From: Microtetraspora fusca
GTDB taxonomy: Bacteria > Actinomycetota > Actinomycetes > Streptosporangiales > Streptosporangiaceae
Reading direction: 5' to 3'
DNA: 64,000 nucleotides
Assembly: GCF_001570365.1 (NCBI RefSeq)
Contig: NZ_BBYK01000041.1
Location: forward strand, 371,970 to 435,969
Of the stretch, positions 917 to 27,866 are shown in pieces. Position 1 is the first letter of the stretch. Every line of letters begins with the position of its first letter. The position numbers and the translations under genes are program-made. The notes beneath the pieces were generated by a model. That model had not been told where the DNA came from, searched no databases, and saw only the letters and a list, made by a program, of their open reading frames with translations.

Positions 917-1795
917 TTAGAGGGCGGTTATCGTCCAGGCCGCCTCGTGCGTGTCCCCCGGCTTGAGCACGACGAGGTCGGTCCCCGAGTTGAAGGCGTC
1001 CGGCGGGCAGCTCATCGGCTCCACGGCCACGCCCCGGTGGCCGAGCCCGGTGCCCGTGCAGACCTGCGCCCACGGCATCGTCGCCGTGTCCCAGGAGATC
1101 TCGACCCCGCCCTCCGGCCCGCGCAGCCGCACCCGGCCCTCGGTCAGGCCGGTGAACGCGTGATCGATCGCGGTGGCCCCGATCGGGCGGGGCCGCCGGA
1201 AGTCGTACGGCGTGGCGGAGACGTCCGCCAGCTCGCGCGGGCGGAGCAGGTCGTCCGTCAGCAGCACCCGCCCGGCGGGCAGGTCGAGCTCGTACGCCTC
1301 GACGTCCGGGCCGGCGAGCAGCCAGGGGTGCGGGCCGCAGCCGTACGGCGCGGCGGTGTCGCCGACGTTCTCGGCGGTGAGGGTGGTGGTCAGCCCGTGC
1401 GCGGAGACCTCGTGGCGCACCTGGAGGGCGAGGCGGAAGGGGTAGCCGGGCGTCGGCTCGACGGTGTGGGTCAGCCGGACGAAGCCGTGGTCGTCCTCGG
1501 CCCGCAGCAGCTCGGCGACCGTCCAGGCGACGTCGGCGACGAGCCCGTGCAGGGCGTTCCCGCGGTCGGGCTCGTTGACGGGCAGCTCGTGGCGCGCGCC
1601 CTCGAACTCGTACGCCGCGCCCGCCACCCGGTTGGGCCACGGAGCGAGGATCGTGCCGCTGTAGAAGGGGATGGGCCCGTCCTCCGGCCAGCTCGTCACC
1701 AGGTCGCGGCCGCCGTGCCGGAGCACCCGCAGGGCGGCGCCCAGGGGGCTGATCTCGGCGTGGTAGCCGCCGCCGATGATTTCGTACTGGGCCAC
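917..1795 (-). CDS. Aldose 1-epimerase (galactose mutarotase-like)
   Basis: This 292-residue cytosolic enzyme has a normal length for the family. Hallmarks are an ILAPWPNR segment near residue 50, a NALHGL histidine motif near 80, and a GCGPHPWLL histidine motif near 150. Family members interconvert alpha and beta anomers of free aldoses such as glucose and galactose. The GTG at 1795 is preceded by AAAGGA at a workable distance. It lies 73 bp downstream of a GH1 beta-glucosidase, which releases beta-glucose, so mutarotation of that product is a sensible role. It is followed after 19 bp by the phosphotransferase gene. Confidence 0.85.
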   Translation of the reverse strand: MAQYEIIGGGYHAEISPLGAALRVLRHGGRDLVTSWPEDGPIPFYSGTILAPWPNRVAGAAYEFEGARHELPVNEPDRGNALHGLVADVAWTVAELLRAEDDHGFVRLTHTVEPTPGYPFRLALQVRHEVSAHGLTTTLTAENVGDTAAPYGCGPHPWLLAGPDVEAYELDLPAGRVLLTDDLLRPRELADVSATPYDFRRPRPIGATAIDHAFTGLTEGRVRLRGPEGGVEISWDTATMPWAQVCTGTGLGHRGVAVEPMSCPPDAFNSGTDLVVLKPGDTHEAAWTITAL

Positions 1796-1868: not shown

Positions 1869-3191
1869 TCAGCGGACCTCGCCCGACTTGATGACGTCGC
1901 GGTACCAGAGGGCGCTGCCCTTCGGCGTGCGGCGCTGGGTCGCGTAGTCGACGTGCACGATGCCGAACCGCTGGCTGTACCCCTCGGCCCACTCGTAGTT
2001 GTCCAGCAGCGACCACACGTGGTACGCCTCCACCCGGGCGCCCTCCGCCATCGCGTGGTGCATCGCGCGCAGGTGGCCGTGCAGGTAGGCGATCCGCTCG
2101 TCGTCGCGCACCCGCCCGTCGGCGTCCGGTTCGTCCACGGTCGCCAGGCCGTTCTCGGTGATCACGAGCGGCACGCCGTCGTAGTCCCGCCTGAGCCGGA
2201 CCAGGATGTCGTGGAAGCCCTCGGGGTAGATCTCCAGCCACTCGGCCTGCGCCCTCGGGTTGCTGATCACCCGCTCGCCCGCGCCGTCCACGAAGATCGG
2301 CGTGTAGTACTGCACGCCGAGCAGGTCGATCGGCTCGCTGATCACGGCGAGGTCGCCCTCCCGGATGTGCTCGGGCATCGGGCTCCGCTCCGCGATCCAG
2401 GCCAGGGTGTCCTCGGGGTAGCTCCCCTTGAGGATCGGGTCGAGGTAGAGGCGGTTCTCCACACCGTCCTGGTGCCGCGCCGCCGCGAGCGCCTCCGGGC
2501 TCTCGTCCGCCGGATAGCTGGGGTGCAGGTTGAGCGCCGGGCCGATGCGCCGCCCCGGGTGGGCGGCGTGCAGCCGCCGCGTGGCGAGCCCGTGGCCGAG
2601 CAGCAGGTGGTGCAGCGCGACGAAGGCCCGCGCGTCGTCCTGCACGCCCGGGGCGTGGCTGCCGTTCCGGTAGCCGCACTCCACGACGGTCTTCGGCTCG
2701 TTGATGGTGAGCCAGTCCCTGACGTGCAGTGCGTCGAACACGATCTCGGCGTAGTCGGCGAAGCGCTCGGCCGTGTCCCGGTTCTCCCAGCCGCCCCGGT
2801 CCTGGAGCTCCTGCGGCAGGTCCCAGTGGAACAGCGTGGCCATGGGCCGGATGCCCCGCTCCACCAGGCCGTCGACCAGCCTGCGGTAGAAGTCCAGACC
2901 CTTCTGGTTGGGCGCTCCGGAGCCGGTCGGCTGGATCCGCGGCCACGCGACGGAGAACCGGTAGCTCTGCAGTCGCAGCTCGGCCATGAGGTCGAGGTCC
3001 TCGGCGTAGCGGTGGTAGTGGTCGGCCGCCGTCTCCCCGGTGTCGCCGTCGCGCACGTTGCCCGGCACCGCGCTGAAGGTGTCCCAGACGGACACGCCGC
3101 GGCCGTCCTCGCGGGTGGCCCCCTCGATCTGGTACGCGGCGGTGGCGGCGCCCCAGACGAAGTCCGAGGGAAATCTCACCGGTGAATTCAT
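1869..3191 (-). CDS. GH1 beta-glucosidase (NRPS-linked copy)
   Basis: This 440-residue glycoside hydrolase family 1 enzyme hydrolyses beta-linked glucosides by a retaining mechanism. The N-terminal signature FVWGAATAAYQIEG, the acid/base motif WLTINEPK and the nucleophile motif LVITENGL are all present. No signal peptide is seen, so it acts in the cytoplasm. The ATG at 3191 (MNSPVRFPSDF) is preferred over an in-frame upstream start at 3317 because that extension would overlap the E2 gene and lacks homology. It lies 16 bp behind E2 in the operon. A second GH1 gene is in the ceb operon at 29475. The likely substrate is cellobiose, cello-oligosaccharides or a glucosylated peptide product; the last is speculative. 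Confidence 0.93.
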   Translation of the reverse strand: MNSPVRFPSDFVWGAATAAYQIEGATREDGRGVSVWDTFSAVPGNVRDGDTGETAADHYHRYAEDLDLMAELRLQSYRFSVAWPRIQPTGSGAPNQKGLDFYRRLVDGLVERGIRPMATLFHWDLPQELQDRGGWENRDTAERFADYAEIVFDALHVRDWLTINEPKTVVECGYRNGSHAPGVQDDARAFVALHHLLLGHGLATRRLHAAHPGRRIGPALNLHPSYPADESPEALAAARHQDGVENRLYLDPILKGSYPEDTLAWIAERSPMPEHIREGDLAVISEPIDLLGVQYYTPIFVDGAGERVISNPRAQAEWLEIYPEGFHDILVRLRRDYDGVPLVITENGLATVDEPDADGRVRDDERIAYLHGHLRAMHHAMAEGARVEAYHVWSLLDNYEWAEGYSQRFGIVHVDYATQRRTPKGSALWYRDVIKSGEVR

Positions 3192-3207
3192 CAGGCTCGT
3201 CCAATTC

Positions 3208-4443
3208 TCATGTCGTGAAATGTCCGGGGGTTTCGAGCGCCGTTCGGATCGCGGCGAGGAATTTCGCGGCCTCGCGTCCGTTGACGAAACGGTGGTCGTA
3301 GGAAAGCCCCAGTCCACAGACCTTCCGTACGGCGAAGCCGGCGCCGTCCTGGACCACCTCGGAGCGGGGCGCGGTGAGCGCCAGCGCGCACGTCTGGCCG
3401 GGAAAGACGATGGGGGTCGCCACGGCGACGCCGTCGTGCGTGTGCAGGGTGAGCGTGATCACGCCGCCTCGGAGATCGCTCTCCCGGAAGGCCCCCTCCA
3501 ACGCCGTACGGCGGAAGCCGGTGAGGTCACGGGCGATCTCGGCGAGGGAGCGGCCGCCCGCGTCCCGGACCACCGGGATGAACAGGCCCCGGCCCACGTC
3601 CACCGTCACGCCCACGTCGGCGGCGGTCGCGCGCCGGGCGCGCAGGCCCTCCGCCGGAGCGGCGAAGAAGAGCGGGAAGGCGTCGAGCAGCCCTCCGACG
3701 GCCTTGACGACCAGCTCCGGCAACCCGACGAGGGCCCGGAGCCGCCGGGTGAGGTCGCGGGTGAGCGGCAGCGCGTCGGTCACGTCGACGTTCACCAGGG
3801 TGAAGGCCGAGGGGATCTCGCGCCGGGACCGCTCGACGACCTCCGCCGTCCTGAGCTGCGCCAGGGACAGGGAGATCAGCTCCCCCGCCGCGCCCCCGTC
3901 GGGCTCTTTCCTGTCCTCGCCGCCGCGGATCGCCGGGAGGCCGGGCGTGGGCGACCGCCCGGGCTCCGCCGGCCCTCCGGGCGGCGGAGCCTCCCGCGAG
4001 CCCCCGGCGGCGAGGTGCTCCAGATCCGCTCGTCTGACGACCTTCCTGCCGAGCGCGCGGATCTCGTCCGGGGAGACGCCCAGCTCGTCGATCAGCTTCC
4101 GGGCGGGAGCGGTGATGACGATGTCGCCGGGCATCGCGGCGTCCGGCGCCGTGCCGGGGGAGTGCCCGGCACCGGGTTCTACGCCGGGTTCGGCATCGGT
4201 CGCTTCGGCGCCGCGGGCGAGCAACCGCGCGATGGCCTGCCCGGGGACGCACTCGGCTCCCGCCTGGAGCAGCCGCCGCAGCACGCCCGCCTCCTCGGCG
4301 GCCAGCTCCTCGACCGCCTTGGACGTCTCCACCGTCACCAGCGGATCCCCGGCCCGTACGGCGGCGCCGTCCTCGGCCAGCCACTCCAGCAGCACGTACG
4401 CCGAGTCGTTGTTGTTGAGCTTGGGCACCCGGAACTCGCTCAC
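3208..4443 (-). CDS. 2-oxoacid dehydrogenase E2, lipoyl acyltransferase
   Basis: This 411-residue dihydrolipoamide acyltransferase is built as lipoyl domain, E1/E3-binding domain and catalytic domain. The lipoyl-lysine motif is VETSKAVEE near residue 42. The peripheral binding domain lies near 130-165 (TAPARKLIDELGVSPDEI). The catalytic motif near the C-terminus reads YDHRFVNG, with Asn where many E2 enzymes have Asp; Asn also occurs in active E2 proteins such as that of Azotobacter. It moves an acyl group from E1-bound thiamine to CoA or another thiol. The GTG start at 4443 overlaps the E1beta stop (GTGA). No E3 gene is in the window. Linkers are rich in Pro/Ala/Gly, as usual. Confidence 0.92.
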   Translation of the reverse strand: MSEFRVPKLNNNDSAYVLLEWLAEDGAAVRAGDPLVTVETSKAVEELAAEEAGVLRRLLQAGAECVPGQAIARLLARGAEATDAEPGVEPGAGHSPGTAPDAAMPGDIVITAPARKLIDELGVSPDEIRALGRKVVRRADLEHLAAGGSREAPPPGGPAEPGRSPTPGLPAIRGGEDRKEPDGGAAGELISLSLAQLRTAEVVERSRREIPSAFTLVNVDVTDALPLTRDLTRRLRALVGLPELVVKAVGGLLDAFPLFFAAPAEGLRARRATAADVGVTVDVGRGLFIPVVRDAGGRSLAEIARDLTGFRRTALEGAFRESDLRGGVITLTLHTHDGVAVATPIVFPGQTCALALTAPRSEVVQDGAGFAVRKVCGLGLSYDHRFVNGREAAKFLAAIRTALETPGHFTT

Positions 4444-5417
4444 GACACCGCCTCACGTACGGCGGCGCGGATGCGGTCGGCCTGGACCAGGACGTCGCGT
4501 TCGAGGTGGGGAGCGGCGGGGATCACCGCGTCCGCCGAGTTGACCAGGGTGATCGGGCGGCGCAACCTGCCCCACAGGCGTGGATAGAGCACCCGGGCGA
4601 CCTCGGCGCTCCAGCTGCCGCCCTCGCCGCCGTCGTCGATCACGCAGACGTGCCGGGCGTTCTCCAGCCCCGGCAAGTGCGGAACCGGATAGAGCCGGGC
4701 GGGCACCAGCAGCTCGCAGACCACCTCGTCCTCCACGAGGAGCGTCCGCATGGCGTCGAGCGTCCGGTGGACCAGCCCCCCGTGCGTGACGAGCGTGCAG
4801 TCGGGCTCCGCCGCGCCGCCGACGAAGACCCGCGCGGTCTCCCCGGTCAGCTCGAACCGGAACAGGTCGTCCAGCCGGTGCATGTGCCGGGTGTAGAGCA
4901 CCTTGTCCTCGAAGAACAGGCACGGGCGGCTCAGCGCGAACATCCGGGCGAACAACTCGCCCGCGTCGTGGAACGGCGTCATCTCGAACAGCGAGAGGCC
5001 GGGCACCCCGATGAAGTGCTTCTGGAGGCTCTGGCTGTGCGTCGGGCCGTATCCGCGGTTGCCGCCGGTCGGGCAGCGCACGATGAGCGGCACGGGCACC
5101 GCCCTGCCGTACATGGCGGTGGACTTGGCGGCGAAGTTCGCGATCTGGTCGAACGCCAGCGTCACGAAGTCGGAGAACATGATCTCGACGACGGCCTTGT
5201 CCCCGGCGAGGGCCAGCCCCGCGCCGACGCCGACGATGCCCCCTTCGCTCAGCGGCGTGGACCTCACCCGGGAGCCGAACCGGTCGGACAGCCCTCGTGT
5301 GATCTTGAACGCGCCGCCGTACGGGTCGGAGACGTCCTCGCCGAGCAGGTGCACGGCGGGGTCCGACTCCATGAGGTCGTGCAGCGCCTGGTTGAGGTGT
5401 TCGGACACCCGGGTCAC
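4440..5417 (-). CDS. 2-oxoacid dehydrogenase E1 beta subunit
   Basis: This 325-residue transketolase-like beta subunit pairs with E1alpha to decarboxylate a 2-oxoacid on thiamine diphosphate. The N-terminal part carries LLGEDVSDPYGGAFKIT and STPLSEGGIVGVGAGLAL. The central part carries FSDFVTLAFDQIANFAAK and the GPTHSQS motif. The GTG at 5417 overlaps the E1alpha stop as GTGA, and its own stop overlaps the E2 start, so all three are translationally coupled. The motifs fit the pyruvate/acetoin/branched-chain group and do not fix the substrate. With the adjacent E1alpha frameshifted, this subunit may lack a partner in this strain. Confidence 0.92.
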   Translation of the reverse strand: MTRVSEHLNQALHDLMESDPAVHLLGEDVSDPYGGAFKITRGLSDRFGSRVRSTPLSEGGIVGVGAGLALAGDKAVVEIMFSDFVTLAFDQIANFAAKSTAMYGRAVPVPLIVRCPTGGNRGYGPTHSQSLQKHFIGVPGLSLFEMTPFHDAGELFARMFALSRPCLFFEDKVLYTRHMHRLDDLFRFELTGETARVFVGGAAEPDCTLVTHGGLVHRTLDAMRTLLVEDEVVCELLVPARLYPVPHLPGLENARHVCVIDDGGEGGSWSAEVARVLYPRLWGRLRRPITLVNSADAVIPAAPHLERDVLVQADRIRAAVREAVS

Positions 5418-6407
5418 GACCGCCGTCCCGTCGCGCCGGCGGCGATCCGGCTCGACTCCTCCGCGAGCGCGGGCGGAACCGCGAGCGCGGGCGGAGCCGC
5501 GGGGGCCGCGAGCGGGCGCGCGGCGACCTCGGCGACGAGCCGGTCGACGAACGCCCGCTGCTCCCGGTCGATCCGGGCGAACCGCTCCGGGTCGGCCGCG
5601 GCGTAGCGGGCGTGCCAGTCGGACCGGCGCGCCCGCTCGATCTCCGCCAGGGAGCGCGTGTCGTCCCCCTTGCTGTGCGGGCCGATCCGGTGCGTGACGA
5701 ACTCGGCGACCAGCGGCGACGGCTCGGAGCGTACGGCGGCGACGAGCGGGGCGAGCTCGGCCCGGATCTCCTCGACCTCGGTGGACGTGATCCGGTGGTG
5801 GCGGACGCCGAACGCGGCGGCCCGCGCGCCGATCGTCCCGGCGAGCTGCGCGGACGTCGGCGTCGACTGCGCGATGCCGTTGTGCTCGACCACCACGAGG
5901 AGGGGGAGCCGCCACAACGCGGCCATGTTCAGCGCCTCGTACACGGCGCCCTCGCCCCACGTGCCGTCGCCGACGTACGCGCAGGCGAGCGCTCCGGAGC
6001 CGGCGCTTCAGCGCCACGCCGGTCGCCACGGGCAGGCTCTCGCCCTGGACGCCGGTGGACAGGAACCGCCGGTGGTAGACGTGCTGGCTGCCGCCGACTC
6101 CGCCGCACAACGCGCCCTCGCGCCCCATGATCTCCGCGAGCAGCCCGTACGGCTCGGCGTGGCGGGCGAGGAAGTGCCCGTGGCCCCGGTGGTTGCTGAA
6201 CACGAAGTCCTCGTCGAGGAGCAGCGGGGCGAGCGCGACGGGGATGTACTCCTGCCCGAGGCAGGTGTGCGTGGTGCCGCTGACGGCGCCCTGCTCGAAC
6301 AGCCGGAGCAACGCCAGCTCGAAATGCCGGATGAGCAGCAGCGACCGCAGGTCCTGATCCGAGGGGGGTGGCCGCAGGCTCTGAGGAGATGCAGCGGTGA
6401 CGATCAC
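5414..6407 (-). pseudogene. 2-oxoacid dehydrogenase E1 alpha subunit, interrupted by a frameshift
   Basis: The first ~135 codons carry E1alpha motifs: NHRGHGHFLARHAEP and GGVGGSQHVY. The reading frame then runs into nonsense arginine-rich protein. The rest of the enzyme is in another frame and resumes immediately: the thiamine-binding motif GDGTWGEGAVYEALNMA, EHNGIAQST and the C-terminal HRIGPHSKGDD. The frames join if one base near 6002 is skipped, in a GC-rich stretch, which would give about 330 residues. This is either a real inactivating mutation or a base-call error. GTG 6407 is preferred as start because AGGAG lies 10 nt upstream. ATG 6467 is an alternative but begins just after the operator and has no good ribosome site. 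Confidence 0.85.
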
Positions 6408-6473: not shown

Positions 6474-6487
6474 TGGGAGCGCTCCCA
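6474..6487. promoter_or_regulatory. CebR-type operator (TGGGAGCGCTCCCA)
   Basis: This perfect 14-bp palindrome is identical to the two copies upstream of cebE in this window and to the CebR operator known from Streptomyces. It starts 4 bp after the -10 hexamer of the leftward E1/E2/beta-glucosidase promoter, so bound repressor would cover the transcription start. Confidence 0.88.
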
Positions 6488-6491
6488 CCGG

Positions 6492-6520
6492 AGCGTAGAT
6501 TCGCGCCTGTTCGCTGTCAA
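6492..6520 (-). promoter_or_regulatory. Promoter of the E1alpha-E1beta-E2-beta-glucosidase operon
   Basis: On the minus strand TTGACA (6520-6515), a 17-bp spacer and TACGCT (6497-6492) match the vegetative actinobacterial sigma-factor consensus closely. Transcription would start inside the operator at 6474-6487. The rest of the 6488-6634 region is relatively AT-rich and shows no convincing gene. Confidence 0.75.
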
Positions 6521-6634
6521 TCCCGGTCGGAGAGTCGGAGGGTGTTGAATCCGCACGATCCGCCCGCTGAAGTGCGTAAATATTAGAATCTTTCACAGTA
6601 ATTCACTAATAACGGCGTGAAACCTGCATGACTC

Positions 6635-6664
6635 TTGACGAATCAAAGTCGTCATCTCTAGCCT
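6635..6664 (+). promoter_or_regulatory. Candidate promoter of the NRPS operon
   Basis: TTGACG (6635-6640), an 18-bp spacer and TAGCCT (6659-6664) form a plausible rightward promoter. The operator at 6674-6687 would cover about +4 to +17. A second TTGACG at 6668-6673 with TAACTT at 6689-6694 has a short 15-bp spacer and would enclose the operator. The untranslated leader from about 6671 to 6920 otherwise shows no gene. Confidence 0.5.
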
Positions 6665-6673
6665 CCATTGACG

Positions 6674-6687
6674 TGGGAGCGTTCCCA
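6674..6687. promoter_or_regulatory. Variant CebR-type operator (TGGGAGCGTTCCCA)
   Basis: This differs from the perfect palindrome by one base (T for C at position 9). It lies exactly 200 bp from the perfect copy at 6474, close to 19 helical turns, so both sites should face the same side of the DNA. It sits downstream of the candidate NRPS promoter. Confidence 0.75.
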
Positions 6688-6920: not shown

Positions 6921-6962
6921 ATGTCAAGAACGCTGGAACCCGCCGAGACGGCGGCGCCATGA
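6921..6962 (+). CDS. Possible 13-residue leader peptide coupled to the first NRPS gene
   Basis: The ATG at 6921 encodes MSRTLEPAETAAP and its TGA overlaps the ATG of the NRPS gene as ATGA. The good ribosome site AAGGGGA (about 6909-6915) sits 5 nt before this short frame, while the NRPS ATG at 6959 has no clear site of its own. Translation of the large gene may therefore depend on ribosomes that finish this short frame. The peptide has no obvious attenuator codon run. It could also be chance. Confidence 0.4.
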   Translation: MSRTLEPAETAAP

Positions 6963-9900
6963 CGCGGAGCGCCCTCTCGCCGGCGAAGCAGGCGCTGCTC
7001 GCGCAGCGGCTGAACGCCGCGAAGGCCGCCGCCGTGACGGTGCCGCCGCGCCCGGCCGGAACCCGCCCGCCGCTCTCCCACGCCCAGGAACGCCTCTGGT
7101 TCCTGGAGCAGTACGCCCCCGGCACCACCGCGTACACCGTCGCGTTCGCCGTACGGCTGGCGGGCGAGATCGACGAGGACGCCCTCGACCGGGCGCTCAT
7201 CGAGGTCGCCCGCCGCCACGAGAGCCTGCGGACGAGATTCGTCACCACGGACGACGGCACGCCCGAGATCGTCGCCGACGCGGAACCGGTGGCCGAACTG
7301 CGGCTGTCGGAGGACGCCGGCAGCGTGCGCGAGGAGATGGCGCGGCCCTTCGACCTGGAGACCGGCCCGCTGCTGCGCGCCCTCCTCGTCCGGCTCGGCC
7401 CGGCGGAGCACGTTCTGCTGCTCACGATGCACCACGCCGTCACGGACGGCTGGTCCTGCGACATCGTGATGGAGGAGCTCCTCGCCCTGCACGAGGCGTA
7501 CCGGACCGGAACGGACGCCGGGCTGGCGCCCCCGCCCCTCCAGTACGGCGACTACGCCGTGTGGGAGCGGGGACGCTCCCACGACGACGACATCCGCTAC
7601 TGGCGGGACCGGCTGGCCGGGCTGCCGCCGCTGGAACTGCCCACCGACCTGCCGCGCCCGCCCGAACAGGGCTGGGACGGCGCCGCGCACGGCCTGGAGC
7701 TGGACCGCGAGCTCTGCGACGCGCTCGCCGAGCTGGGCCGCGCGCACGGCGCGACGCCGTACATGACGCTGCTCGCGGCGTTCCAGGTGCTGCTCTCCCG
7801 CCTCTCCGGCCAGCGCGACTTCGCCGTCGGATCACCCGTGTCGGGGCGGGAGCTGCCCGAGCTGGAACGTGTGGTCGGGCTCTTCGTCAACTCGCTGCCG
7901 ATGCGGGCGGACCTGTCCGGCGACCCTCCCTTCACCGAGCTGCTCGCCCGCGTACGCGAGACCGCGCTCGACGCGTACGCGCACCAGGAGCTGCCCTTCG
8001 ACCGGCTCGTGGGCGAGCTGGGCGTCGAGCGCGACGTCAGCAGGTCGCCGGTGTTCCAGGTGATGTTCGCCCTGCAGAACTACCGCTCCGCGCCGCTGCG
8101 GACCCAGGGCCTGGCCATGTCGGCCCACCCGATCGAGGTGTCCGCGAGCCGGTTCGACCTCGCCCTCTACCTGATGGAGACCGGGGACGGGCTGCGCGGC
8201 AACTTCACGTACCGGACCGAGCTGTTCACGCCCGAGACCGTCCGGAGGACGGCCGCCTGCTTCGAGCGGCTGCTCCGGTCGATCGTCGCCGACCCCGGCG
8301 CGCGGACGTCCGAGCTGGAGATGGTCCCGCCGGAGGAGCTCCGTGAGGTGCTGGCCTTCGGCGCGGCCGCGCCGGCGCTTCCGGAGCCCGGCGCCCCGGA
8401 CGGCGCGCTCCTGCACGAGGTGATCGCCGCGCAGGCCGCGCGCACCCCCTCCGCCACGGCCGTCGTCTCCGGGGACGTCTCCCTCACGTACGCGGAGCTG
8501 GACCGGCGGGCCGAGCGAATCGCGCGCCGCCTGCGGCGGCTCGGTGTGGGGCCGGACGACCGGGTCGGCATCTGCCTGGAGCAGTCCGCCGGCCTCGCGG
8601 TCGCGGTCCTCGGCGTGCTCAGGTCGGGCGCGGCCTATCTGCCGCTCGACCCCGAGCACCCGCCCGATCGGCTCGCGTACGTGCTGGCCGACGCCGGCGC
8701 CCGGATCGTGGTGACCGGCGGCGACCTGCGGGACCGGCTTCCCGCCGACGTGACCTCCGTCCTCCTCGCGCCCGACGGGATCGTGGACGACGCCGACGAC
8801 GAAAGTGACGGAGCCGCCGCCGTCCGGGGCGCTCCCGGCGACCTGGCGTACGTGATCTACACCTCCGGGACCACCGGCCGGCCCAAGGGCGTCGCGATCC
8901 AGCACCACGAGGTCCTCGTCTACCTCGCGGGCGTCCGGGAACGGCTCCGCGTAGAGCCGGGTTCGTCGTTCGCCCTGCTGCAGTCGCTCGCCTTCGACTT
9001 CGGCGTGACGGTGTTCTACCTGTGCCTGATGACCGGCGGGACGCTGCACCTCGTCCCGTCCCGTACGGCCGGGCCCGAGCTGGCCGACGCGTTCCGCCGG
9101 GTCCCGATCGACTATCTCAAGATCACCCCGTCGCATCTGGCCGCCCTGCTCGCCGACGCCGACCCCGCCGAGCTGCTGCCGCGCAAGCTGCTGCTTCTCG
9201 GCGGGGAGGCCGCGCCACGCGGCTGGGCGGCCGAGCTGGCCGCCCTGGGCAGGTGCCGGGTGGTCAACCACTACGGCCCCACCGAGGCGACGGTCGGCGT
9301 GACCACCTACGAGGTCGCCGCGGAAGGCGAGGATGTCCCCTTGCTCGGACGCGGCGGCGCGGCGGGCCTGCCGATCGGGTCGCCGCTTCCCGGGGCGCGC
9401 GTCCATGTGCTCGACGAGCGGCTGCGCCCGGTCCCGATCGGCGTCCCCGGCGAGATCCACCTGGGCGGGGAGCGTCTGGCCCGCGGCTACCTCGGCCGGC
9501 CGGGACTCACCGCCGACCGTTTCGTCCCCGACCCGTACGGCCCGCCCGGCGCGCGGATGTACCGCACCGGCGACCTCGGCAGGTGGCTGCCCTCCGGAGA
9601 GCTGGAGTTCCTCGGCCGCCGCGACCTCCAGGTGAAGATCCGCGGCTACCGGGTCGAGCCGGGCGAGGTGGAGTCGGTGCTCGTGGAGCACGCCGACGTG
9701 GCCCAGGCGGTCGTCGAGCCGCGCGGCGAGAGGCTCGTCGCCTATCTCGTCGGCCACCCCGACGCCGGGCCGGACGCCGTCGCCGCCCGTCCGGACGCGA
9801 CGGAGCTGCACGCGTGGCTGGCCGACCGGCTGCCCGCGTACATGATCCCGGCCGCGTACGCCTGGCTGGACGAGCTGCCGCTCAAATCGCACGGCAAGGT

Positions 9901-12613
9901 CGACCGCGCCCGGCTTCCCGAGATCGGCGCGCAGACCCCGGCCGCCGCGTACACCGCCCCGGCCACTCCCGCCGAGGAGGCGGTCGCGGGCGTCTGGGCC
10001 GAGGTGCTCGACCTGGAGCGGGTGGGCGCGCTCGACGACTTCTTCGCGCTCGGCGGCCACTCCCTGCTGGCCATGCGGGTCGTCGCCCGGCTGCGCCGGG
10101 CCTACCCGCGGCGGGCGGTCACGGTCCTCGACCTGTTCAAGCACCGGACGGTCCGCGCGCTGGCGCTGCTCCTCGAATCCGAGGACTCCGGGCCGCGCGC
10201 GCTGCTGCACCGGCTCACCCCGGCGCGGAAGGCCACGTCCACGCTGGTCTGCGTGCCGTACGGCGGGGGCAGTGCGGTGGTCTACCAGCCGCTCGCCGAC
10301 GCCCTGCCCGCCGGCTGGGCGCTGTACTCCGTCGCGGTGCCCGGCCACGAGCTGGGCGAGGAGGCCCGGCCGTTCGACGAGGTCGTCCGCGACTGCGTGG
10401 CCGAGATCGTCGAGATCACGGACCAGGCCCCGGGGCCGCTCGTCCTCTACGGGCACTGCGGGCTCGGCGTCATGCTCGTCACCGAGATCGCCCGCCGGCT
10501 GGAGGCGGCCGGACGCCCGGTGGAGGTCGTCTACCTGGGCGGCATCTTCCCCTTCGCCCGGCCGGGCCGCGGTTTCGGCCGGCTCGGCACGCTGATGGAC
10601 CGGCTGACCAGTGACCAGGGCAGGGTCAACGCCCTCACCGCGGCCGGGCTCGACGTCGAGGACCTCGGCCGCGACCAGATCCGGCTGATCGTGGAGAACC
10701 GCCGTCAGGGAACCCGCGCGGCCGAGCGGTACTTCACCAGGCTCTTCGAGGAGGAGGGCGGACGGCTGCGCGCCCCGATCATCTCGGTGGTGGGGGAGCG
10801 GGACCCGGCGGCCGAGTTCTACCAGGAGCGCTACCTCGAGTGGCACCGGCTCACCGGCACGGCCGCCTGCGCGGTGATCGACGAGGCCGGGCACTTCTTC
10901 ATGCGGTACCGCGCCGCCGAACTCGCCGAGATCGTCACCGGCACCCACGAGGCCATCGAGTCGGGCCGCACCGCCCCGCTGGAGCGGTCACCGGACGGCG
11001 ACGACCGGACGTGGTGGCTTGAGGCTGTGTCCCGCGAGCCGGCCGATCCGGTCGAACCGGCGGCTTCGGACGAACCGGACGAACCGGCCGCCGCAGGACC
11101 GGCGCGGCGGCAGGGCCCGCCGCCCAGCATGCGGCGGTTCCTCGTGGTCGCGGCGGGACAGCTCATCTCGATCACCGGCTCGGCGCTGACCGAGTTCGCC
11201 ATCCCCATCTGGATCTATCTCACCACCGGGTCGCTCGCCCGGTTCGCGCTCTTCGCCGTGCTCGGCCTGGTGCCCGGAATGCTGGCCGCGCCGCTCGCCG
11301 GCGCCATCGTGGACCGGTACGACCGCAGGAAGGTCATGCTCGCCGGCGACGCGGGGGCGGGCGGCACCCAACTGGTGCTGGGGATCCTGCTCTGGACCGG
11401 CAACCTCCAGATCTGGCACATCTATCCCCTGCTGGCCGGCCTCTCCGTCGCGCTCACCTTCCAGCGCCTCGCGTACGGCTCGGCCATCCCGCAGCTCGTG
11501 CCGAAACGGTTCCTCGGGCACGCCAACGGCGTCGTCCAGATGGTCACCGGAACGGCGCAACTGGTCGTGCCGCTGATCGCGGTCGGCCTGATGTCGGCGA
11601 TCGGGCTGGAGGGCATCCTCGCGATCGACGTCGTCAGCTACGCGCTGGCCACGCTGGCCGTCCTCGTCGTCCGGTTCCCGGCGGCGATGGCGTGGCGGCG
11701 GCGGGAGAGCGTGCTGGCCGAGATGGCGGGCGGCATCCGGCACTCCTGGGGCAACCGGGGGTTCCGCGCGATGCTCGTCTACTTCGCGGTGCTGAACGTC
11801 TTCCTGTCCCCGCTGTTCCTGATGATCTCGCCGCTGGTGCTGTCGTTCGCGTCGCTGGCGGACGTGGGCCGGGTGTCGTTCGCCGCCGGCCTCGGCGTCT
11901 TCCTCGGCGGGCTGGCGATGACCGTGTGGGGCGGCCCCCGGCGCCGCCGCCTGTACGGCGTGCTCCTGGCGACGCTCGCGCTCGCGGTGTTCTGCCTGCT
12001 GACCGGGCTGCGCGCGAACCTGGTGACGATCGCGGCCGGCGCGTTCGGGATGTCGCTCTCGCTGACCCTGCTGAACGGCGTCTACGCCACGATCATCCAG
12101 GTCAAGGTGCCGCAGCGCTTCCACGGCCGGGTCATCGCGCTCAACACTCTGGTCGCCTGGTCCACGCTGCCGATCGGGTTCGGCCTCGGCGCGCCGTACG
12201 GCGCCGCGGTGTTCGAGCCGCTCCTCGCCCCGGACGGACCGCTCGCGGGCACGGCCGGCCTGCTCCTCGGCACCGGCGATGGACGCGGGATCGGCTTCAT
12301 GTACGCCTGCTTCGGCCTGGCGATCGCCGCGATCGCGCTGGTCGCCATGCGGACCAGGGCGCTGCGGCGGTTCGACGCGGAGGTGCCCGACGCCCTGCCG
12401 GACGACCTGGTCGGGTTCCAGGCCCTGGGGAAGCGGGCCCGGCGCGGGACCGCCCCGGCGTCCCGCTCCGACTCCACGCACGATTCCGGCTCCACGCACG
12501 ATTCCGACTCCACGCACGATTCCGGCTCCACGCACGATTCCGGCTCCGCGCCCGATTCCGGCTCCACGCACGATTCCGGCTCCGCGCACGAGGCCGAGGA
12601 GGTGCCCGTATGA
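6959..12613 (+). CDS. NRPS C-A-T-TE fused to an MFS exporter
   Basis: This 1884-residue protein has domains in the order condensation (about 25-460, HHAVTDG near 158), adenylation (480-980, YTSGTTGRPKG near 634), carrier (LGGHSL, Ser ~1035), thioesterase (~1085-1350) and a 12-helix-type MFS transporter (~1391-1820). The thioesterase nucleophile motif reads GHCGLG, so Cys (~1167) replaces the usual Ser; GERDP and EAGHFF supply the likely Asp and His. The pocket residues, aligned by eye to GrsA, read D-F-T-K-L-G-H-V-G-K. This resembles Asp codes. The transporter starts MRRFLVVAAGQ and has IVDRYDRRKVM, an MFS motif-A-like loop. A Ser/Asp/His/Thr repeat tail follows. ATG 6959 is preferred over an in-frame GTG at 6785 because homology begins just after it. 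The next gene overlaps by ATGA. Confidence 0.93.
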   Translation: MTRSALSPAKQALLAQRLNAAKAAAVTVPPRPAGTRPPLSHAQERLWFLEQYAPGTTAYTVAFAVRLAGEIDEDALDRALIEVARRHESLRTRFVTTDDGTPEIVADAEPVAELRLSEDAGSVREEMARPFDLETGPLLRALLVRLGPAEHVLLLTMHHAVTDGWSCDIVMEELLALHEAYRTGTDAGLAPPPLQYGDYAVWERGRSHDDDIRYWRDRLAGLPPLELPTDLPRPPEQGWDGAAHGLELDRELCDALAELGRAHGATPYMTLLAAFQVLLSRLSGQRDFAVGSPVSGRELPELERVVGLFVNSLPMRADLSGDPPFTELLARVRETALDAYAHQELPFDRLVGELGVERDVSRSPVFQVMFALQNYRSAPLRTQGLAMSAHPIEVSASRFDLALYLMETGDGLRGNFTYRTELFTPETVRRTAACFERLLRSIVADPGARTSELEMVPPEELREVLAFGAAAPALPEPGAPDGALLHEVIAAQAARTPSATAVVSGDVSLTYAELDRRAERIARRLRRLGVGPDDRVGICLEQSAGLAVAVLGVLRSGAAYLPLDPEHPPDRLAYVLADAGARIVVTGGDLRDRLPADVTSVLLAPDGIVDDADDESDGAAAVRGAPGDLAYVIYTSGTTGRPKGVAIQHHEVLVYLAGVRERLRVEPGSSFALLQSLAFDFGVTVFYLCLMTGGTLHLVPSRTAGPELADAFRRVPIDYLKITPSHLAALLADADPAELLPRKLLLLGGEAAPRGWAAELAALGRCRVVNHYGPTEATVGVTTYEVAAEGEDVPLLGRGGAAGLPIGSPLPGARVHVLDERLRPVPIGVPGEIHLGGERLARGYLGRPGLTADRFVPDPYGPPGARMYRTGDLGRWLPSGELEFLGRRDLQVKIRGYRVEPGEVESVLVEHADVAQAVVEPRGERLVAYLVGHPDAGPDAVAARPDATELHAWLADRLPAYMIPAAYAWLDELPLKSHGKVDRARLPEIGAQTPAAAYTAPATPAEEAVAGVWAEVLDLERVGALDDFFALGGHSLLAMRVVARLRRAYPRRAVTVLDLFKHRTVRALALLLESEDSGPRALLHRLTPARKATSTLVCVPYGGGSAVVYQPLADALPAGWALYSVAVPGHELGEEARPFDEVVRDCVAEIVEITDQAPGPLVLYGHCGLGVMLVTEIARRLEAAGRPVEVVYLGGIFPFARPGRGFGRLGTLMDRLTSDQGRVNALTAAGLDVEDLGRDQIRLIVENRRQGTRAAERYFTRLFEEEGGRLRAPIISVVGERDPAAEFYQERYLEWHRLTGTAACAVIDEAGHFFMRYRAAELAEIVTGTHEAIESGRTAPLERSPDGDDRTWWLEAVSREPADPVEPAASDEPDEPAAAGPARRQGPPPSMRRFLVVAAGQLISITGSALTEFAIPIWIYLTTGSLARFALFAVLGLVPGMLAAPLAGAIVDRYDRRKVMLAGDAGAGGTQLVLGILLWTGNLQIWHIYPLLAGLSVALTFQRLAYGSAIPQLVPKRFLGHANGVVQMVTGTAQLVVPLIAVGLMSAIGLEGILAIDVVSYALATLAVLVVRFPAAMAWRRRESVLAEMAGGIRHSWGNRGFRAMLVYFAVLNVFLSPLFLMISPLVLSFASLADVGRVSFAAGLGVFLGGLAMTVWGGPRRRRLYGVLLATLALAVFCLLTGLRANLVTIAAGAFGMSLSLTLLNGVYATIIQVKVPQRFHGRVIALNTLVAWSTLPIGFGLGAPYGAAVFEPLLAPDGPLAGTAGLLLGTGDGRGIGFMYACFGLAIAAIALVAMRTRALRRFDAEVPDALPDDLVGFQALGKRARRGTAPASRSDSTHDSGSTHDSDSTHDSGSTHDSGSAPDSGSTHDSGSAHEAEEVPV
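12470..12591 (+). repeat. 18-bp tandem repeat encoding a Ser/Asp/Thr/His tail
   Basis: Nearly seven 18-bp units encode repeats of the type DSGSTH at the C-terminus of the NRPS-MFS protein. The codons are almost identical between units (GAT TCC GGC TCC ACG CAC), so copy number is likely to vary between strains. It forms a flexible cytoplasmic tail after the last membrane helix. Confidence 0.85.
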
Positions 12614-14151
12614 CGGGCGCGCCCGCGTACACCGTCCCTGACCTGCTGCGCATCCGCGCCGAACAGGAGCCGGACGGCGTGGCGATGATCGTCGACGGCC
12701 ACGGGGCCATGACGTTCGCCGAGTGGGAGCGGCGCTCCGCCCTCGTGGCGTACGGGCTGACCCGGCGCGGCGTCGCGCCCGGCGACCGGATCGGGCTCCT
12801 CTTCGGCAGCCGCGACTGGATCGACTACGCCGTGGCGTTCTGCGGGGTGCTGAAGGCCGGGGCGGTGGCCGTGCCGCTGTCCGACCGGCTCGCGCCCGCC
12901 GAGACGCGCTACATGCTGGAGCACTGCGCCGCAGTGGCCGTGCTACATGGCCGCGACCTCGTCGCGCCGCCCGGCGGTCGCTGGACGGCCGCGCCCGCCG
13001 ACCTGGAAGCCGGTTCGGAAGCGGCGCGGGGAGCCGGGCCGGGAACGGGCTCCGCGCCGGCGCCGCCCGCCGAGGCGCGGGTCCGGCCCGGCGACCTGGC
13101 TCAGATCCTCTACACGTCGGGCACCACCGGGCGGCCCAAGGGGGTCGGCGCCTCCCACGCCAATCTGGCGTACGGATGCGTCACCCGGCCGCACCGGCGC
13201 AGGTTCGCGCACTCGCGGCACCTGCTGCACGCCTTCCCGATCGGGACCAACGCCGGGCAGACCATGCTGCTGAACGCCCTGGACGCGCGGCCCGCCGTGC
13301 TCACCCCCGCGAGGTTCACGCCGGGCCGGTTCGCCCGGCTGATCGAGACGTACCGGCCGGGCACCGTGTTCATGGTGCCGTCCATGGCGATCGAGCTGCT
13401 CAACGCGGGGCTGCCCGAGCGGCACGACATGTCGAGCGTGCTGCTGCTCGGCTCCGCCGCCGCGGCGCTGCCGCCCGCGCTCTCGGAGCGGCTGGCGGCG
13501 GCGTTCCCCAACGCGACGCTGACGAACTACTACACGTCCACCGAGGCCGCCCCGGCGCAGACCATCATGATCTACGACCGGGAGCGGCCCGCCGCGCTCG
13601 GACGGCCCGCGTTCGGCGGCGCGCTGCGCGTCACCGACGAGGCGGGGAACCCGCTGCCGCCCGGCGAGGTCGGCGAGATCTGGATGCGGTCGCCCACCGC
13701 CCCCCGCTCCTACTACGGCGACGCCGCCGCGAGCGCGCAGGCGTTCCGGAACGGCTGGGTGCGGATGGGCGACCTCGGTCACGTCGACGCGGACGGCTAC
13801 CTCTACCTGGTCGACAGGGAGAGCGACGTGGTCAAGACCGGAGCGTTCAAGGTCTCCACGCTCCAGGTCGAGGCGGCGCTGTACGAGCATCCGGGGGTCG
13901 CGGAGGCGGCGGTCTTCGGCGTGCCGCACCCGGTGCTCGGGACCGCGCTCGCCGCCGCGATCGTGCCCAGGGACGAGGGGATATCGGCGGCCGAGGTGCG
14001 CGAGTTCCTGAGGGACCGGGTGGCCGGGCACGAGCTGCCCGAGCGGGTGATCGTCCTGGACGACCTGCCCCGGAACCGGTCCGGAAAGGTGATCAAGAGG
14101 GAGTTGCCCGCGCTGCTCGGCGACTCCAGGCTCCATACGGAAGGCGACTGA
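12610..14151 (+). CDS. Stand-alone acyl-adenylating enzyme (acyl-CoA/acyl-ACP ligase family)
   Basis: This 513-residue AMP-forming ligase contains the P-loop ILYTSGTTGRPKG near residue 163, the motif TNYYTSTEA near 300, MGDLGHVD near 390, and the C-terminal catalytic lysine in NRSGKVIKREL. It lacks a carrier domain. It would activate a carboxylic acid as the acyl-adenylate and load CoA or a carrier protein. Candidate partners are the free carrier at 15733 or the C-T protein at 14153, which has no adenylation domain. ATG 12610 overlaps the preceding TGA. It resembles fatty or aromatic acyl ligases more than amino-acid A domains because the NRPS-type pocket motifs are absent. The substrate is unknown. 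Confidence 0.85.
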   Translation: MTGAPAYTVPDLLRIRAEQEPDGVAMIVDGHGAMTFAEWERRSALVAYGLTRRGVAPGDRIGLLFGSRDWIDYAVAFCGVLKAGAVAVPLSDRLAPAETRYMLEHCAAVAVLHGRDLVAPPGGRWTAAPADLEAGSEAARGAGPGTGSAPAPPAEARVRPGDLAQILYTSGTTGRPKGVGASHANLAYGCVTRPHRRRFAHSRHLLHAFPIGTNAGQTMLLNALDARPAVLTPARFTPGRFARLIETYRPGTVFMVPSMAIELLNAGLPERHDMSSVLLLGSAAAALPPALSERLAAAFPNATLTNYYTSTEAAPAQTIMIYDRERPAALGRPAFGGALRVTDEAGNPLPPGEVGEIWMRSPTAPRSYYGDAAASAQAFRNGWVRMGDLGHVDADGYLYLVDRESDVVKTGAFKVSTLQVEAALYEHPGVAEAAVFGVPHPVLGTALAAAIVPRDEGISAAEVREFLRDRVAGHELPERVIVLDDLPRNRSGKVIKRELPALLGDSRLHTEGD

Positions 14152-14152
14152 G

Positions 14153-15739
14153 ATGTCAGTGACGCTCGTCGGCGAGGGAGAACAGGCCTCCCTCGCGCAG
14201 CACGGCATGTGGATCACGGAGCGGATGGGAGCGGGCGGCCGGGTCTATCACATGCCGGTCGCCATGTGGTTCGACGGTCCCCTCGACACCGACCGGCTCC
14301 TGGCCGCGTGCGACGCGGTCGTCGAGGCGCATCCCGCGCTCGCGATCGCCCTGGTCGAGCGGGACGGCGCGCCGGCGAGGGTGCCGGCCGCCGTGGCGCC
14401 CCCCGTCCGGTTCGAGGACGTGTCGGGGCGCGACCCGGCCGGGCTGATCGAGCGTGAGACGGCCCTCGCGCTGGACCTGGGCACCGGGCCGCTGGCCCGG
14501 TTCACGCTCCTCCGCCTCGCCCCGGAGCGGCACGTCCTCGTGTTCGTCGCCCACCACGCCGTCTTCGACGGCATGTCCAAGGACATCCTGGTCCGGGACC
14601 TCGCCGCCGCCTACGCCGGCCGTCCGCTCCCCGCCGCGTACGGCGACGCCGTGGCGGAGGAGAACGCGCTGGTCGCCGAGCTGCTCGACGCGGCCGCCGA
14701 GTTCTGGCGGAGCCGCTGGCGGGACCGGCCGGGACTCGCGCTTCCCGGGCTCGTCGCGCCCTCCGTCAGGGCGGCGGCGGGAGAGGTCGTCGACTTCTCC
14801 ATCGGGCCGGACGTCGCCGCCGCCGCGGAGCGGATCGGCGTCACCCGGTTCGAGCTGGTGCTGGCCGCGCTGCACACCCTGCTCCGCGCGTACGGGAACG
14901 ACGGGGCGGCCGTGGCGGTGGACCTGTCCACCAGGACCGAGCGGACCCGGGACCACATCGGGCTGTTCGTCAACGAGCTGCCGGTGACCGTCCCGTCCGC
15001 GGGCGCCTTCGACGGCACGTTCGCGGATCTGGCCCGCGCGGTGCGGGAGGAACTGCGCGCCGTCTACCGCTTCCGGGGGGTCCCACTGGCCAGGGCGGTC
15101 GGCGGGGTGAGCCCGCGCACCGCGCTCACCCCGGTCTCGGTCAGCTACCGCAGGCGCGACGGGGACGATCCCGCGTTCCCCGGCCTGCGCGTCTCGGTGG
15201 ACCGGATGATGTTCAACCAGGCGGTCCGGGGCACGTTGCACCTCCAGATCGTGGACGGGCCGGACGGCATCGCCGCCCGCTTCCAGTACAACCCGGAGAT
15301 CCTCGGGCGGGCGCACTGCGAGAGCGTGACCGGTCACCTGCTGGCGCTGCTCGACGCGATCGCGGCCCGGCCCGGCAGCGACATCGCCGATCTGCCCGTG
15401 CCCGAGCCGGTGCCCGAGCCGGTGGCCGAGCCGGTGCGGGAGCCCGCGGGGGAGGCCACCGCGGACGCCTCGCTTGCCGGGGCCGCGCCGCCCGCTGGGG
15501 AGGTCTTGCCGTACGCCCGGGAGGTGGGCGAGATCTGGTGCGAGGTGCTCGGCCGTGACGTCGGCCCGGACGAGGACCTCTTCGACCTCGGAGGGCACTC
15601 CCTGTCGATCACCGAGATCATCGCGAAGGTCCGCGAGCGGCTGGACGTCGAGCTGTCCTTCGACGTGTTCTTCGACGCCCCGACGATCAACGGCGTCGCC
15701 GAGGAGATCGCCCGCCTGAAGGAGGAGGAGGGATGCTGA
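14153..15739 (+). CDS. NRPS condensation-carrier (C-T) didomain
   Basis: This 528-residue protein has an intact condensation active site, HHAVFDG near residue 134, and a C-terminal carrier domain with LGGHSLS (Ser ~483). A Pro/Glu/Val-rich linker (about residues 413-435) joins them. It lacks an adenylation domain, so its carrier must be loaded in trans, probably by the adenylating enzyme encoded just upstream or by another A domain in the cluster. The ATG follows the preceding stop by one base. It forms an amide or ester bond between an upstream acyl/peptidyl thioester and its own loaded unit. Free C-T proteins are known from dissociated assembly lines such as those making pyrrolamides. Confidence 0.88.
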   Translation: MSVTLVGEGEQASLAQHGMWITERMGAGGRVYHMPVAMWFDGPLDTDRLLAACDAVVEAHPALAIALVERDGAPARVPAAVAPPVRFEDVSGRDPAGLIERETALALDLGTGPLARFTLLRLAPERHVLVFVAHHAVFDGMSKDILVRDLAAAYAGRPLPAAYGDAVAEENALVAELLDAAAEFWRSRWRDRPGLALPGLVAPSVRAAAGEVVDFSIGPDVAAAAERIGVTRFELVLAALHTLLRAYGNDGAAVAVDLSTRTERTRDHIGLFVNELPVTVPSAGAFDGTFADLARAVREELRAVYRFRGVPLARAVGGVSPRTALTPVSVSYRRRDGDDPAFPGLRVSVDRMMFNQAVRGTLHLQIVDGPDGIAARFQYNPEILGRAHCESVTGHLLALLDAIAARPGSDIADLPVPEPVPEPVAEPVREPAGEATADASLAGAAPPAGEVLPYAREVGEIWCEVLGRDVGPDEDLFDLGGHSLSITEIIAKVRERLDVELSFDVFFDAPTINGVAEEIARLKEEEGC

Positions 15740-16008
15740 GGGAACGCCTGGCCGAGCTGGTGTCCCGGGCCAGCGGCGGAGAGCTCGCCGCCGCCGACGT
15801 CCTCGCCTCGGACCGGAGCCTGCCCGCCCTCGGGGTCACCTCGCTCGTCTATCTACGGCTGATCGACGCGATCGAGGTCGAGTTCGGGTGCGACGTCGAT
15901 CTCGACGGCCCCTTCCTCGACACGCTGGACGGCCTCGCCGACCACCTGGCGAACCGGCTGGCGGGCCGGCTGGCGGACGCGCCCGGCGGCCGGGCCGGGG
16001 ACCGATGA
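15733..16008 (+). CDS. Free-standing acyl/peptidyl carrier protein
   Basis: This 91-residue protein fits one carrier domain. The helix-2 motif reads LGVTSLVYLRLIDAIE with the putative phosphopantetheine-bearing Ser at residue 37; the usual D-S-L is T-S-L here. The sequence after the motif (VEFGCDVDL) looks more like acyl carrier proteins than NRPS carriers. ATG 15733 overlaps the end of the C-T gene and is preceded by GGAGGAGGG. It may hold a starter acyl unit loaded by the nearby ligase or delivered by the E2 acyltransferase of the divergent operon. Both partners are inferred from context only. Confidence 0.8.
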   Translation: MLRERLAELVSRASGGELAAADVLASDRSLPALGVTSLVYLRLIDAIEVEFGCDVDLDGPFLDTLDGLADHLANRLAGRLADAPGGRAGDR

Positions 16009-17435
16009 CCCCGCTCACCCCGGAGACGGTCGAGTTCGCCGGCGCCCGGGGCGGTGAGGCTCCGCTGACCTGGGGCCAGCGGATGATCTGGAGCTCCACC
16101 CGGTGGCTGCCCGACGGCGACCCGTACTTCAACCTGTCCTGGACCCTGCCCGTCGCCGGAGCCGTGGACCTGCCCGCCGTGCTGCGCGCCCTCCGCCGTC
16201 TGATCGAGCGGCACGAGACCCTGCGCACGGCCTACGTGAAGACGGGGGAGGGCACCGTCCAGCGGGTGGCCTGCGCCGGACGGCTCACCGTCGGCGTGTA
16301 CGAGACCGCGTCCCGGCCGATGTCGGCGGCGACGACCCTCGCCGCCGAACTGGCCGCGACCGCGTTCGACTACGCCCGGGAGCTGCCCGTACGGTGCGCC
16401 GTCGTGATCAGCGGGGGACGGCCGCGCGCGGTCGCGCTCGCGCTGTCCCACCTGGCGGTCGACGGCTGGTCGCTCAACCTGCTCGCCACCGAATGGCCGC
16501 GGCTCCTCACCGGCGACGACCTGCCCGCGCCGGGACGGCAGCCCCTCGACCAGGCCGCGTACGAGAGCGGGGACGAGGCGGCCGCGCGGTCCGCGCGGGC
16601 GGTGCGGCACTGGCGGGCCGGCCTGGCGCGCGCGCCGCGCTCGATGTTCGACTTCCCCGGGAGGGAGCCGGAGGAGCCGCGGTTCGTCCGGTACGGCATG
16701 CGGTCTCTCGCGACGGCGGTCGCCGCCGAGACGCTCGCGGCCCGCTGCTCCGCCACCACCGCCAGCGTGCTGACCGTGGCGAGCGCCGCGCTGCTGGCCG
16801 CCGTGACGGGACACCGGACGGCGGCGCTCCAGCTGATCGTCTCCAACCGGCACGACCCGTGCGTTCGCGACATGGCCGCCCCCGCCGCGCTCGACGGGCT
16901 CTTCGTCCTCGACCTGGCCGACGGCACCTTCGCCGACGCCGTACGCCGGGGGCACGGGCAGGCGATGGCCGCCTACCGGAACGGCCACTACGACCTGTCG
17001 GCGGTCGACGCCGTACGGGCCGAGGCCGCGCGGGAACGCGGCGCGGACCTCGACCTGGACGCGTTCTTCAACGATGTCCGGCCGGACGGCCGCTGGCGGG
17101 ACCTGCCGCCGGTCGACCGCGGCGACCCGGCCGCGCTCAGGGAGCGGACCAGGACGTTCTTCGTCGGCGGCTATCCCAAGGTCAAGGCGCACGTCTTCTT
17201 CGCGACCGGCCCCGCGTCGGCGACGTGCGAGTTCTTCGTCCTGGTCGACACGGCCTTCCTGCCCGGCGAGACGGCCGAGCGGATGCTGCTCGGCCTGGAG
17301 ACCCTGCTGGTCCGGGCGGTCGCCGAGGAGGTGCCGCTCGACCGGGTGGCCGAGGTCTGCGGCCTCGCCCCCGTACGGCGGCCCGCCGGCTGGACCCGGG
17401 TCGGCGACGACTGGATCGAGAACACGGAGAGGTGA
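16005..17435 (+). CDS. Condensation-domain protein with altered first histidine (SHxxxDG)
   Basis: This 476-residue protein has the length and strand order of a single C domain. Its core motif reads SHLAVDG (Ser ~148), so the first His of HHxxxDG is Ser while the catalytic second His, Asp and Gly remain. The region around PFDLE in typical C domains is replaced by AFDYARELP. It may catalyse condensation of an unusual pair, act as an acyltransferase, or be a scaffold. The ATG overlaps the carrier gene stop (ATGA), so it may work directly with that carrier. Function is uncertain beyond the superfamily. Confidence 0.75.
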   Translation: MTPLTPETVEFAGARGGEAPLTWGQRMIWSSTRWLPDGDPYFNLSWTLPVAGAVDLPAVLRALRRLIERHETLRTAYVKTGEGTVQRVACAGRLTVGVYETASRPMSAATTLAAELAATAFDYARELPVRCAVVISGGRPRAVALALSHLAVDGWSLNLLATEWPRLLTGDDLPAPGRQPLDQAAYESGDEAAARSARAVRHWRAGLARAPRSMFDFPGREPEEPRFVRYGMRSLATAVAAETLAARCSATTASVLTVASAALLAAVTGHRTAALQLIVSNRHDPCVRDMAAPAALDGLFVLDLADGTFADAVRRGHGQAMAAYRNGHYDLSAVDAVRAEAARERGADLDLDAFFNDVRPDGRWRDLPPVDRGDPAALRERTRTFFVGGYPKVKAHVFFATGPASATCEFFVLVDTAFLPGETAERMLLGLETLLVRAVAEEVPLDRVAEVCGLAPVRRPAGWTRVGDDWIENTER

Positions 17436-27837: not shown

Positions 27838-27866
27838 TCGTTTCGCCCGAGCCGAGGAGTTCTGCC

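Follow-up and report, generated by a model that had tools for sequence, protein, structure and literature searches.

The window, i.e. the whole 64,000-nucleotide stretch of Microtetraspora fusca DNA that was analysed, contains two divergent gene sets, with NRPS genes on the plus strand and E1/E2, beta-glucosidase (GH1) and aldose 1-epimerase genes on the minus strand, and further on a cebE-cebF-cebG-bglC-cebR type operon (Table 1). C, A, T and TE domains were found within one gene set, which identifies the locus as an NRPS biosynthetic cluster. The first NRPS gene carries C-A-T-TE and the MFS exporter in one frame, and most of the 79 related loci described below match via both parts. In four genomes of the genus, open frames run through the best matches to this gene. 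Between the NRPS genes and cebR (24241–28379) lies a gene for an indolepyruvate ferredoxin oxidoreductase, overlapped by a divergently read gene for an Lrp/AsnC regulator.

The E2-like protein of the window reached 129 bits against the housekeeping pyruvate dehydrogenase NCBIfam cut-off of 449, and the intact E1 subunits of a relative (L019) likewise stayed below NCBIfam cut-offs (alpha 181 vs 394, beta 151 vs 321). The E1 alpha gene is one frame in all 19 relatives compared and two frames in the window, which may be an assembly error or a real mutation; the frameshift was counted against the regulon reading proposed below. Among the scanned ORFs of 917–24211 there was no txtR-like activator, as would mark a thaxtomin-type cluster. 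A-domain residues, read by GrsA numbering, gave the codes DFTK[LI]GHVG and DILQLGVVW, each in 20/20 loci, and DTEDIGTVI in the C-A-T protein of the window, which presumably resemble Asx-like, Gly-like and possibly basic specificities, respectively. A literature search for such codes returned no match, and in the accessible part of PMC4599437 MFS or dehydrogenase terms were not found. To name the peptide product a toxin is unsupported.

Table 1. Genes, predicted promoters and CebR boxes of the window.
Feature	Position	Strand	Basis or remark
Aldose 1-epimerase	917..1795	-	domain scan
GH1 beta-glucosidase	1869..3317	-	TIGR03356, 566 bits vs cut-off 478.5
E2-like acyltransferase with lipoyl domain	3208..4443	-	Pfam 2-oxoacid_dh, Biotin_lipoyl; below NCBIfam cut-offs
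E1 beta, approximate start	4440..5420	-	Pfam Transket_pyr and Transketolase_C
E1 alpha, 2-oxoacid-dehydrogenase-like, two frames in assembly	5414..6407	-	Pfam E1_dh on N-terminal part
CebR box, E1 side	6474..6487	.	exact TGGGAGCGCTCCCA
Predicted E1 promoter	6492..6520	-	-35 TTGACA 6515-6520, 17 bp, -10 TACGCT 6492-6497; box 4 bp on
Predicted NRPS promoter	6635..6664	+	-35 TTGACG 6635-6640, 18 bp, -10 TAGCCT 6659-6664; box 9 bp on
CebR box, NRPS side	6674..6687	.	TGGGAGCGTTCCCA, one base off
NRPS C-A-T-TE fused to MFS exporter	6959..12613	+	domain scan
Acyl-CoA-ligase-like AMP-binding enzyme	12610..14151	+	below curated cut-offs
NRPS C-T	14153..15739	+	domain scan
Stand-alone carrier protein	15733..16008	+	by sequence and homologues, without Pfam scan
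Divergent condensation-domain protein (ORF; true start later)	15888..17435	+	domain scan
Condensation-domain protein (ORF; true start later)	17493..19082	+	domain scan
NRPS A-T	19128..21056	+	domain scan
NRPS C-A-T	21053..24211	+	domain scan
LacI-family repressor, CebR/CelR orthologue	28427..29446	-	homology, helix, PDB match
bglC, GH1 (approximate start)	29475..30870	-	domain scan
cebG permease (approximate start)	30908..31790	-	domain scan
cebF permease	31789..32763	-	by sequence and position, without domain scan
cebE, cello-oligosaccharide-binding protein	32848..34197	-	PDB 5ixp and 8bfy
First CebR box before cebE	34287..34300	.	exact match
Second CebR box before cebE	34417..34430	.	exact match

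The first-pass annotation had reported three exact copies of a 14-bp palindrome and a one-base variant, and a motif search of the window confirmed all four positions. When up to two mismatches were allowed, these 4 matches compared with a shuffle mean of 0.65, and 4 were reached in 1 of 100 shuffles. The 9.02-Mb genome contained 10 exact and 4 one-mismatch places of the 14-mer, with 0.126 exact places expected from base composition and 2 matches per strand in the reversed-sequence control. The earlier identification of the 14-mer as the known CebR operator was supported by comparison, as it matches the CebR/CelR consensus in the accessible text of PMC5332605.

The genome-wide scan for further copies, also suggested at first pass, placed several exact boxes at cellulase genes. 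Of the seven outside the window, four adjoin GH5-CBM2 (L004), GH9 (L006), GH48-CBM2 (L007) and GH6-CBM2 (L010) genes. The others are at a gene that matches GH6 weakly and stands opposite a GGDEF gene (L005), at a LacI paralogue gene (L008) and at a HATPase gene (L009). At the last of these (1501–2125), the box stands ca. 17 bp 5′ of the probable GTG start of an HATPase_c_2 (anti-sigma-like) gene. The one-mismatch places were the NRPS-side box at 6674, a box at a distance of 139 bp from that of the GH48 gene (L013), a place beside the genes for a LacI protein and a solute-binding protein (L014), and a place close to an SDR gene, which may be chance (L012).

The two boxes of the NRPS locus lie between the E1 alpha gene (minus strand) and the first NRPS gene (plus strand), for which the probable starts, read from the sequence, are GTG 6407 and ATG 6959. 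Each box follows just past a predicted -35/-10 promoter, in line with their earlier placement in the divergent promoter region of the NRPS and E1/E2/beta-glucosidase operons, and the 14-bp consensus palindrome of the CebR/CelR regulon, exact on the E1 side and one base off on the NRPS side, is found at both predicted promoters. Because the box comes right after the -10 element on either side, a bound repressor would, by this geometry, cover the start site. A 13-residue ORF (6921–6962) overlaps the probable NRPS start by ATGA, and similar upstream sequence is present in L015 and L016.

Relatives were collected by a protein search with the TE-MFS part of the NRPS, which yielded 79 loci; among named species, the closest relatives of the locus were found in Microtetraspora malaysiensis, M. 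niveoalba and M. glauca. The gene order and intergenic region of the window were shared by 19 loci (L015–L020, L022–L028, L036, L037, L071, L074, L079, L084; L021 was left out, as its stretch ends before the intergenic region), which belong to Microtetraspora, Microbispora, Streptosporangium, Planobispora and one other Streptosporangiaceae strain. The box pair is kept in 18 of these 19, the conservation expected of a CebR/CelR regulon member. The remaining locus, L028, keeps the NRPS-side box and lacks an E1-side one close to the promoter, with others at 1323 and 4206, and was counted against the regulon reading. Elsewhere, two-mismatch matches occur in L046, L072, L078 and L082, and one-mismatch matches in L067 and L076. 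Matches to TGGGAGCGCTCCAG in Herbidospora (L054, L056, L061, L064, L080, L093) align with apparent condensation-domain coding sequence and were dismissed as chance.

For geometry and identity, 22 pairs related by descent were compared, i.e. the 18 relatives, the window, and three reversed loci that a search for the pair pattern had brought in (L170, L173, L176); the shared descent and the origin of these three were counted against the regulon reading. Promoter elements and spacers are identical in 22/22, and the gap from -10 to box is in all of them 3–5 bp on the E1 side and 6 or 9 bp on the NRPS side. Over the aligned loci, the boxes are more conserved than the sequence that separates them, with a mean column identity of 1.00 on the E1 side and 0.955 on the NRPS side against 0.625 in between. 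Despite this variable intervening sequence, the boxes are 197–200 bp apart in all 22 pairs, as might be expected if one repressor assembly held both boxes in a DNA loop and shut the promoters as a unit. In other architectures, however, the spacing is 176–217 bp (293 in L217) and out of helical phase, each box stands at its own start site, so that a loop is not needed, and constant spacing may reflect descent; looping is considered unlikely.

The CebR-like repressor that the first-pass annotation had seen in the window is the product of the last gene of the ceb operon, which has two exact boxes 5′ of cebE, and a CebR orthologue is accordingly encoded in a ceb operon with boxes of its own, as in the CebR/CelR regulon. 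The best PDB matches of CebE were 5ixp and 8bfy, the latter named cellobiose-binding. The 28427–29446 protein in turn best matched 5ysz (E-value 1.8e-122), which we take to be T. fusca CelR and in which the recognition helix GRGTVSRVINGS is identical. By homology and position this protein is the best candidate for the repressor of the boxes, with the reservation, counted against the regulon reading, that it passed none of the NCBIfam cut-offs. In 23 genomes chosen from the NRPS loci, a CebR orthologue was present in every one (78–98% identity; next best ≤58%), with the same recognition helix in 23/23. The NRPS cluster adjoins cebR in 14 of the 23 genomes and is on a different contig in nine (L023, L025, L026, L027, L043, L050, L051, L079, L084); the L028 cluster is on the same contig as cebR. 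From the unlinked genomes four were fetched (L219–L222), and in 4/4 cebR ends a ceb operon with two exact boxes 130–131 bp apart.

The genome encodes 22 LacI proteins, and one other than the 28427–29446 protein might act at the boxes. A paralogue with 44% identity to CebR (L008, 1501–2549) has an exact box directly before its gene and a different helix, and two paralogues have the similar helix SRATVSRVVNG; paralogues with a box or similar helices were counted against the regulon reading. Against such a substitution, GRGTVSRVINGS occurs, among the readable paralogues (L131 was not readable), in the 28427–29446 protein only, the same helix is found in 5ysz, and the protein stands behind two exact ceb-operon boxes here as in the four unlinked genomes. 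Action of another LacI-family protein is on this evidence highly improbable, and CebR is retained as the candidate repressor.

To look beyond the close relatives, two TGGGANCGNTCCCA boxes 175–204 bp apart were searched for with no gene query in 345 genomes of the order. The pair was found in 73 genomes and 11 of 70 genera, at no fewer than about 75 places, with no control match among the matches listed. Within the genus it is present in three of four genomes, which was counted against the regulon reading. A class-wide sample of 394 genomes gave 13 with the pair; counted by hand, 12 belonged to the 41 genomes of the same family and one to the other 353. In all, 52 distinct places, a non-random part of the set, were read: 30 from the order scan, 20 (2 of them repeats) picked so as to take in further sequence groups, and 4 more from the class scan. 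Of the 52, NRPS/E1-E2 clusters account for 34 and cellulose genes for 17, and one (L207) lies elsewhere. L207 (= L232) has three exact boxes exactly 95 bp apart (9070, 9165, 9260) before a gene that, by our own reading of its sequence, resembles a family 2 glycosyltransferase gene.

The pair is also found in clusters that are rearranged relatives of this one, which makes the case wider than first noted. It separates E1/E2 from a C-domain gene in L196, L198, L200, L203 and L204, and stands beside a large NRPS gene in L197, L199, L205 and L215, with E1/E2 some kb off on the other side, which in L197 starts with a carrier protein and a glycosyltransferase-like gene. It is also beside a large NRPS gene in L209, where E1/E2 are absent from the stretch, before ligase- or carrier-led NRPS operons in L201 and L206, before C-A-T-TE-MFS genes in L208 and L227, and before an NRPS operon running up to the ceb operon in L083/L216. 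In two Planobispora genomes (L234, L235), one extra perfect box precedes another C-A-T-TE-MFS gene, ca. 160–230 bp from where the homology begins.

Paralogous class II clusters, of which 13 were complete, encode the ligase, C-T, E1, E2 and C-A-T-TE-MFS proteins all in one direction, and a box with up to two mismatches was found in 0/13, with the restriction that the fetched stretches may end before the promoter. Six genomes were for this reason searched whole: TGGGANCGNTCCCA was absent from the class II contig in five, and in the sixth (G010) the sole copy on that contig was at a distance of ca. 180 kb. The boxed cluster is present elsewhere in four of these genomes (G010, G012, G024, G026).

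The two boxes of a pair are unequal, with a perfect E1-side box and an NRPS-side box one base off in 22/22 pairs of the type in the window. Both boxes are perfect in all 15 cellulase pairs of the family; in L228, which adjoins a GH9 gene and does not belong to the family, one of the two is imperfect. Among 20 other NRPS-cluster pairs, exactly one box is imperfect in 15, both are perfect in L200, L201 and L217, and both imperfect in L050 and L051. Where the sides could be told (all but L210), the imperfect box precedes the main NRPS or C-domain gene in 14/14 pairs, though in L197, L199, L202, L209 and L215 the opposite side is also NRPS-like. These counts come from loci of common descent, most of them found with a pattern in which only two central bases may vary. 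The NRPS-side box has three one-base states, TGGGAGCGTTCCCA, TGGGAACGCTCCCA and TGGGAGCGATCCCA, which may suggest that the weakness itself is selected.

The departure of the NRPS-side box from consensus could instead mean that it is a weak remnant, in which case only the E1/E2/GH1/epimerase side would be a CebR target, for sugar catabolism, and the NRPS would be controlled otherwise. A 2012 survey, which in its accessible text does not name NRPS, reported CelR sites near pyruvate dehydrogenase genes of Streptosporangium roseum (PMC3377646). The supposed remnant nevertheless keeps its place 6 or 9 bp past the -10 in all 22 pairs and persists in L028 without an E1-side partner, perfect boxes stand at other NRPS genes (L200, L201, L234, L235), and E1/E2 accompany NRPS genes in class II clusters too. 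A one-sided target is consequently quite unlikely.

Taken together, the NRPS locus most probably (at a probability of roughly 0.8) belongs to the CebR (CelR) cellulose regulon, with both promoters under CebR control and released by cello-oligosaccharides; control of both promoters is well supported by comparison. Without cello-oligosaccharides, CebR on the 6474 box would block the E1/E2/GH1/epimerase promoter, and on the 6674 box the NRPS promoter. Cellobiose or cellotriose, imported by CebEFG, would free the DNA of CebR, upon which the NRPS with its fused exporter and the acyl ligase would be co-expressed with the E1/E2 enzymes and the cellulases. As the switch of the cellulose genes would act on both cluster promoters, in this soil actinomycete and in many relatives, the bacterium probably makes the peptide in response to sugars that cellulose breakdown sets free.

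In S. scabies, according to the accessible text of PMC5332605, imperfect boxes have been argued to let the thaxtomin genes answer cellotriose earlier than cellulase genes with perfect boxes. An NRPS box off consensus, next to a perfect E1-side box, suggests a similar graded release, with more leak or earlier release at the NRPS promoter. More tentatively, rearranged NRPS clusters of Streptosporangiaceae may have been wired directly into the CebR regulon with two thresholds, i.e. a weakened operator at the synthetase and a consensus operator at E1/E2, so that a trace of cellotriose would give peptide before full cellulase induction, the weakness being selected. If true, growth on cellobiose or cellotriose would be a direct route to wake a silent peptide, the boxes would be a natural operator series in which to test how one-base changes set induction thresholds, and cellulose breakdown would be linked to chemical competition in soil.

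Direct CebR control of a biosynthetic cluster has so far seemed peculiar to one plant pathogen, and similar wiring is here conserved across soil genera. In S. scabiei, according to the accessible part of PMC8914351, no cello-oligosaccharide-responsive cluster other than thaxtomin seemed directly controlled, though two cryptic clusters that lack a predicted site were raised in the cebR mutant. CebR sites are listed for thaxtomin only in the available text of PMC12527672, and in the portions of the open-access literature consulted direct control was found for thaxtomin only. The rotihibin NRPS cluster of S. scabies resembles the present one in that its protein levels rise with cellobiose, but it is reported to be independent of cebR (PMC8552735, accessible part). 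CelR of Thermobifida fusca and relatives has the same consensus site, and its gene likewise shares an operon with genes for a cellobiose ABC transporter and a beta-glucosidase, whereas the targets named in the accessible text are for the most part cellulases, further carbohydrate genes, transporters or signalling proteins (PMC3377646).

The closest likeness is to the thaxtomin cluster, also an NRPS cluster with a LacI-family cellobiose sensor and the same 14-bp consensus (PMC5332605, PMC8914351, PMC12527672, as far as accessible), in which boxes of the biosynthetic genes are likewise off consensus and cellulase boxes mostly perfect (PMC5332605). The thaxtomin cluster has its boxes at -786/-899 from txtR/txtA and within txtB, and their effect passes through the activator TxtR (PMC5332605), whereas the boxes here are at the predicted start sites of core genes, with no pathway activator seen. 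The genes also differ, with E1/E2 and a TE-MFS fusion, and the hosts are other genera, in several of which the arrangement is conserved.
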